34,643 nucleotides of DNA from an uncultured Pelagibacteraceae bacterium (GTDB lineage: Bacteria > Pseudomonadota > Alphaproteobacteria > Pelagibacterales > Pelagibacteraceae). The DNA is taken from assembly GCA_902580135.1 (NCBI GenBank), contig CACHJL010000012.1:1-34643 (forward strand), read 5' to 3'. A program made the position numbers and the translations under genes. The notes under the pieces were generated by a model. It ran no database searches and was not told the DNA's origin. It worked only from the letters and a program-made list of their open reading frames with translations. Below are positions 16,972-17,584 of this stretch, piece after piece. Positions within the stretch are counted from its first letter, which is position 1. Each line of letters starts with the position of its first letter.

Positions 16972-17436
16972 ATGGAAAAAAAAACAAAACCCAAAAAAGC
17001 ACCAAATTTTAAAATACTTTCTACTGATGGTAAAATATTTGAATTAAATAAAGTTAATAACAAATATATTGTAATCTATTTTTACCCAAAAGATGATACT
17101 CCTGGATGTACAATAGAAACAAATGATTTTAACTCATTGTTTCAAAAATTTAAAAAATTAGACTGTTTAGTCATTGGTGTCTCTAGAGATAGTATAGTTA
17201 GCCACCATAAGTTTAAAAAAAAATATAATGTTAAATTTAATCTTTTGGCTGATGAAAAGAAAGAAGCAATTAAAAGCTATAAAACTTGGGGTAAAAAAAA
17301 ATTTATGGGAAGAGAGTTTATGGGGCTAATAAGAAGTACTTTTGTAATTAAAGATCAGAAAATCATTAAAGAGTGGAGATCTGTTAAAGTCAAAGATCAC
17401 GCATTAGAAGTTTTGGATTTCATTAAAAATCATTAA
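16972..17436 (+). CDS. bcp: Thiol peroxidase, Bcp/PrxQ-type peroxiredoxin
   Basis: YFYPKDDTPGCTIETNDF catalytic motif. Confidence 0.93.
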   Translation: MEKKTKPKKAPNFKILSTDGKIFELNKVNNKYIVIYFYPKDDTPGCTIETNDFNSLFQKFKKLDCLVIGVSRDSIVSHHKFKKKYNVKFNLLADEKKEAIKSYKTWGKKKFMGREFMGLIRSTFVIKDQKIIKEWRSVKVKDHALEVLDFIKNH

Positions 17437-17440
17437 TTAA

Positions 17441-17580
17441 AGAGACCTTTTGACTGATAACAGGAGTGGAGGTTCAAAAGGTCTCCTGTTAATTCGAAGG
17501 GTCCTTTAAAAAGGACCCTCCAAACTTACTTGTTCTTAAATTGATAACTAATTAGAGAGACTGATTATTGAACAAGTAAA
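17441..17580. ncRNA. Structured RNA candidate: interleaved helices, hairpin, and long-range stem between bcp and amtB
   Basis: AGACCTTTTGA (17443-17453)/TCAAAAGGTCT (17474-17484); TAACAGGAG (17458-17466)/CTCCTGTTA (17483-17491); GGGTCCTTT (17499-17507)/AAAGGACCC (17510-17518); TTACTTGTTC (17526-17535)/GAACAAGTAA (17570-17579). Line 17461-17520 is 28/60 G+C by count. Strand undetermined. Confidence 0.5.
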
Positions 17581-17584
17581 TACT

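Follow-up and report, generated by a model that had tools for sequence, protein, structure and literature searches.

GlnZ of Enterobacteriaceae and the alphaproteobacterial RNAs AbcR1/2 are the nearest precedents for the element described here, the former as a regulatory tail of a nitrogen mRNA (PMC9731577) and the latter for anti-Shine-Dalgarno (anti-SD) pairing (PMC8844928). GlnZ is an sRNA released from the 3'UTR of glnA that represses a gene of energy/carbon metabolism, and the amtB tail would resemble it in that the 3'UTR of a nitrogen-assimilation mRNA gives a base-pairing RNA. The parent gene, the target and the organism are different, and a sequence relation was neither found nor expected; in addition, Hfq (PF17209), a chaperone on which 3'UTR-derived sRNAs usually, though not by definition, depend, was found in 0 of 61 genomes of the SAR11 genus, with positive controls, and release of the amtB tail is presumed. 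AbcR1/2 (alpha-r15) and NfeR1 of rhizobia likewise pair with ribosome-binding sites, through anti-SD sequences rich in C and U (CUCCUCCC, UUCCCCUC) that lie in their loops and linkers, but they are independent transcription units with broad transporter targets (PMC8844928), whereas the motif of the amtB tail extends to GUUAGUU, appears to follow one target and has no match in Rfam. In Rhodobacter sphaeroides, the 3'UTR-derived sRNAs SorX, PcrX and UdsB-D/H are alphaproteobacterial mRNA tails that are cleaved by RNase E and end at the terminator, and PcrX links the photosynthesis operon to its own control (PMC8625941). Their parents and targets differ from those considered here, and comparable processing of amtB mRNA would have to be assumed. 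The list of structured RNA motifs described for Candidatus Pelagibacter ubique, from the same group of organisms, follows the same idea, namely that RNAs are to be sought in intergenic regions rich in G+C; it includes the region on the upstream side of amtB (hupA-amtB) without an RNA, and the region 3' of amtB is not among its motifs (PMC2704228).

The element lies in a stretch of 34,643 nt from an uncultured Pelagibacteraceae bacterium, referred to as a whole as the window. It occupies the gap between two convergent genes, and all of its helices were verified base by base. The features are:

16972-17436, plus strand: bcp (peroxiredoxin) coding sequence, convergent neighbour of amtB, outside the element
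17437-17584: gap between bcp and amtB, 148 nt
17442-17485, minus strand: SL1, a perfect 12-bp stem (S1, GAGACCTTTTGA 17442-17453 / TCAAAAGGTCTC 17474-17485) with a CU-rich loop (AACCUCCACUCCUGUUAUCAG, minus strand)
17458-17466 / 17483-17491: S2, a crossing helix of 9 bp (TAACAGGAG / CTCCTGTTA), interleaved and overlapping with S1
17499-17518, minus strand: middle GC-rich hairpin (arms GGGTCCTTT 17499-17507 / AAAGGACCC 17510-17518; GGGUCCUUU/AAAGGACCC), positioned where relatives have their terminator hairpin, with no clear U-run
17526-17579, minus strand: last stem, the first 3'UTR hairpin past the amtB stop codon, 10 bp (TTACTTGTTC 17526-17535 / GAACAAGTAA 17570-17579), with a loop of about 34 nt that holds the seed
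17546-17559, minus strand: seed 5'-CUCUCUAAUUAGUU-3', predicted partner the proteorhodopsin (PR) leader 5'-AACUAAUGAGGGAG of the same genome
17585-18886, minus strand: amtB (ammonium transporter) coding sequence, an open reading frame with orthologues 80–97% identical across the genus

The structured element proposed in an earlier note on this DNA is real. Its helices lie where they had been placed, and the region folds far better than expected by chance, more strongly on the minus strand (z = -6.49 against dinucleotide shuffles) than on the plus strand (z = -4.75), with 0 of 200 shuffles as good in either case. S1 had been located correctly but was 1 bp longer than the 11 bp described, while S2, the middle hairpin, the 10-bp stem and the 148-nt convergent gap were found as reported. 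The G+C content of the 60-nt line 17460-17519 was 45% rather than the 47% given, compared to 34.5% in the bcp-amtB gap and 30.2% in the window. As had been argued, the element is more than a one-hairpin terminator, namely a structured 3'UTR of amtB. It also matches no Rfam family: searches at gathering and relaxed thresholds returned nothing credible for it, the highest ar14 (RF02344) scores, 20.7 and 20.2, falling far short of the gathering threshold of 58.8 and the window itself giving no match.

A DNA search with the element among 101 relatives matched only the element itself, and the comparison was therefore made through synteny. The closest relative, G113 (97% identity in AmtB), has retained S1 as well as the middle hairpin and the 10-bp last stem. 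Compared with G113, one stem pair of the window is changed on both sides (a compensatory U-A to A-U in the middle hairpin), and all four one-sided stem changes give G-U on the minus strand, where the plus strand would have A-C: two in SL1 and one U-A to U-G each in the middle hairpin and the last stem. Many other genomes of the genus (111 of 300) carry a hairpin after the amtB stop codon, here called SLA, whose stem contains 32 G-U cells versus 1 A-C cell in 33 distinct sense rows. Two-sided changes occur in 8 of its 12 pairs in an alignment that was fitted to the model and thus leans towards structure, and in 7 of 12 in the first alignment, which was made without the model. Since the wobble changes are G-U on the amtB strand, the RNA is amtB-sense, and the element is the amtB 3'UTR on the minus strand. 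It lies downstream of the coding sequence on the same strand, with a shared transcript end predicted from the terminators. The amtB 3'UTR element suggested in the earlier note is supported, and the suggested tie to nitrogen is plausible for a part of the ammonium-transporter transcript; the note had missed the functional strand and a stretch antisense to the PR ribosome-binding site.

SLA adjoined amtB in every case in which coordinates were compared, also where bcp lies elsewhere and between tandem amtB copies. This covarying hairpin has a conserved internal loop (GCUCUCUGU / UACUCAUC or GAUCUCCAUGUCGUUAUCUCAUUG) and is absent from Rfam. SL1 of the window resembles it, with weak homology: on the strand of amtB, the SLA profile reached 20.3 bits in G113 but gave no match at SL1 in the window.

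Across Pelagibacterales, a short motif recurs in the 3'UTR of amtB beside variable hairpins; it consists of a CU-tract and, after it, (A)GUUAGUU. In many relatives the gap comprises just 62–85 nt, consisting of the CU-rich stretch, (A)GUUAG(UU) and a terminator hairpin with a U-run, whereas in others SLA is inserted between the amtB stop codon and the CU-rich stretch, giving the order hairpin, seed and GC-rich terminator with U-run, an arrangement also seen in known 3'UTR-derived sRNAs. An intrinsic terminator with a U-run is clear in most relatives; the minus strand shows no clear U-run of this kind in the window. The window and G113 have diverged from this layout in that the CU-rich stretch is located in the loop of the last stem and is followed by the middle hairpin and SL1, the latter likewise with a CU-rich loop. 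The loop of the terminator hairpin that follows the seed in relatives often reads CUCCCUC, another anti-SD-like exposure.

A genus-wide pattern search for the CU-tract plus GUUAGUU revealed a second conserved place, in the opposite sense, which is the PR leader (target 5'-AACUAAC...GAGGGAGUUUUUUAUG). By base complementarity, the amtB tail is antisense to the leader and Shine-Dalgarno region of the PR gene of its own genome. In each of 18 lineages the cell's own seed-leader pair was stronger than at least 299 of 300 shuffles. Own pairs in 16 genomes reached -15.3 to -28.4 kcal/mol, duplex energies that leave out the cost of opening structure, and 0 of 200 shuffles were as strong in any of them. 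When the same 16 seeds were compared with 1,490 start regions taken from G122, a near-complete genome, and delimited by a simple purpose-made ORF caller, with seeds set by hand, the own PR leader ranked between 1 and 27; in G122, PR came within the top six of about 1,490 start regions. In the reverse test, the amtB seed was compared with the 70-nt 3' flanks of 1,492 G122 genes, and in 14 of 15 lineages 0–16 flanks were stronger, placing it in about the top 1%. The seed of G108 forms 17 pairs without interruption, among them a TAGA that its own PR leader contains, and in a distant family CCCUCCCUCGUU of amtB stands opposite AACGAGGGAGG of the PR leader. A match between seed and PR leader was absent from L120 and L125. 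AACTAAC as a general leader motif of SAR11 was rejected (7 leaders versus 3.7 expected). Upstream of the site targeted by the seed, PR leaders also contain a palindrome that is conserved as AGTTTATATAAACT or AGTTTAAATTTAAACT, possibly a promoter operator or a 5'UTR hairpin.

For the window, 13 of 14 positions of the seed pair with its own PR leader (G000, contig 27), one of them as G-U, with one mismatch. The calculated energy is -15.0 to -15.8 kcal/mol, a strength reached by 1 of 300 and 0 of 200 shuffles, and the seed has a mean unpaired probability of 0.73 in the predicted fold. In the reverse test, 47 of the 1,492 G122 flanks were stronger than the seed of this lineage. For the group as a whole, the seed is predicted to be conserved, accessible and able to pair with a target mRNA; the window match is among the weakest of the lineages, and the claim would not stand on the window alone. 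The genome of the window also harbours a second rhodopsin gene (contig 7:37945-38625), which is about 47% identical to proteorhodopsin.

SAR11 bacteria have few transcription factors, and we know of no settled account of how proteorhodopsin is controlled in them. We propose that the tail of the amtB mRNA, either attached or cleaved and released as a small RNA, exposes an antisense seed between or inside hairpins. Where both RNAs meet in the cell, the seed would pair with the PR mRNA at its leader and Shine-Dalgarno sequence and block ribosome binding, and strong amtB transcription, perhaps depending on nitrogen status, would then lower proteorhodopsin synthesis. From the sequence comparisons we put the probability that the amtB 3'UTR RNA represses PR translation by anti-SD pairing at roughly 55%. 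A broader reading, held tentatively and at slightly worse than even odds, is that the amtB tail of Pelagibacterales carries a dedicated, co-evolving antisense seed against the PR ribosome-binding site and forms an RNA circuit, independent of Hfq, in which the uptake of nitrogen is traded against the capture of energy from light. If true, such a conserved link would provide a concrete mechanism by which nitrogen supply is coupled to light use, would add a 3'UTR-derived regulator in a group in which Hfq was not found, and would place this circuit in some of the ocean's most abundant bacteria. The two genes are likely to be expressed together, because in a study of the Red Sea the SAR11 promoters for transport functions, including that of ammonium, ranked high and the rhodopsin promoter ranked tenth (PMC5069720).

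The best surviving alternative, unlikely in our view, is that the tail serves the amtB 3' end only, with a terminator and protective hairpins that stabilise an abundant mRNA, and that the complementarity to PR arises incidentally, from a linker rich in C and U and a Shine-Dalgarno sequence that is conserved. Such a role would agree with the terminator occurring at the same place in most relatives and with hairpins that vary freely in number and order. It is also favoured by G122 taken alone, where the PR leader has better-pairing partners than amtB at many genomic positions, most of them within genes; as amtB is not unique in this whole-genome antisense scan, the case for PR rests on conservation. 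However, GUUAGUU is kept even where it has no hairpin partner, as in tails of the L182 type, and in G356 the PR leader is the first of the 412 own start regions covered by that ranking (-22.5 kcal/mol, with the next at -16.7). Own seed-leader pairs are, moreover, better than permuted ones, in accordance with clade-matched variation: among representatives of 18 lineages, another family included, own pairs averaged -20.0 kcal/mol and permuted pairs -18.5. Permutations as good as the own pairs numbered 13 of 20000 for the 18 lineages and 189 of 20000 for the genus only, counts that ignore relatedness, overstate independence and are to be taken as a guide rather than as a probability.

Part of the signal is generic anti-SD pairing, since the PR Shine-Dalgarno motif GAGGGAG is also present in other leaders. 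It is nevertheless quite improbable that the tail is a general anti-SD regulator of many transporter genes, similar to AbcR or NfeR1, with PR as just one target. Several tail hairpins, including their terminator loops, do display CU-rich anti-SD sequences, the G122 ranking includes the leaders of a sugar-binding protein, a TRAP-like protein and Amt, and a DUF4212/ActP-type leader is second in G356; a high rank in all lineages was obtained for PR only. The sugar-binding protein was rejected as a conserved target, its orthologue being confined to G122. Pairing of the SLA loop to the Amt3 leader, seen in G122, was dropped as well, since the GAUAAC part of this match is not conserved elsewhere. 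The leader of the DUF4212/ActP-like symporter operon resembles the complement of the seed and may be a further target.

Unpaired CU-rich stretches recur in the tail and might be recognised by a protein that binds RNA, such as a cold-shock protein, and controls decay of amtB mRNA; we regard this as very improbable, as clade-matched complementarity to PR would not be expected from it. Least credible of all is the H-type pseudoknot or two-state switch of S1 and S2 proposed in the earlier note, for although both helices are perfect in the window and a crossing 9-bp second helix arises in only 2 of 5000 shuffles, S2 folds to -11.7 kcal/mol compared to -19.9 for S1 (about 8 kcal/mol weaker), is destroyed in G113, the one close homologue, and was rejected as a functional helix, and the pseudoknot would be sterically poor because zero nucleotides separate the 3' arms of S1 and S2. 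The window further contains two 18-nt direct copies, 17429-17446 and 17544-17561, that are 83% identical, and on the minus strand the copy at 17429-17446 resembles a second, weaker seed (GUCUCUUUAAUUAAUGAU) after SL1.
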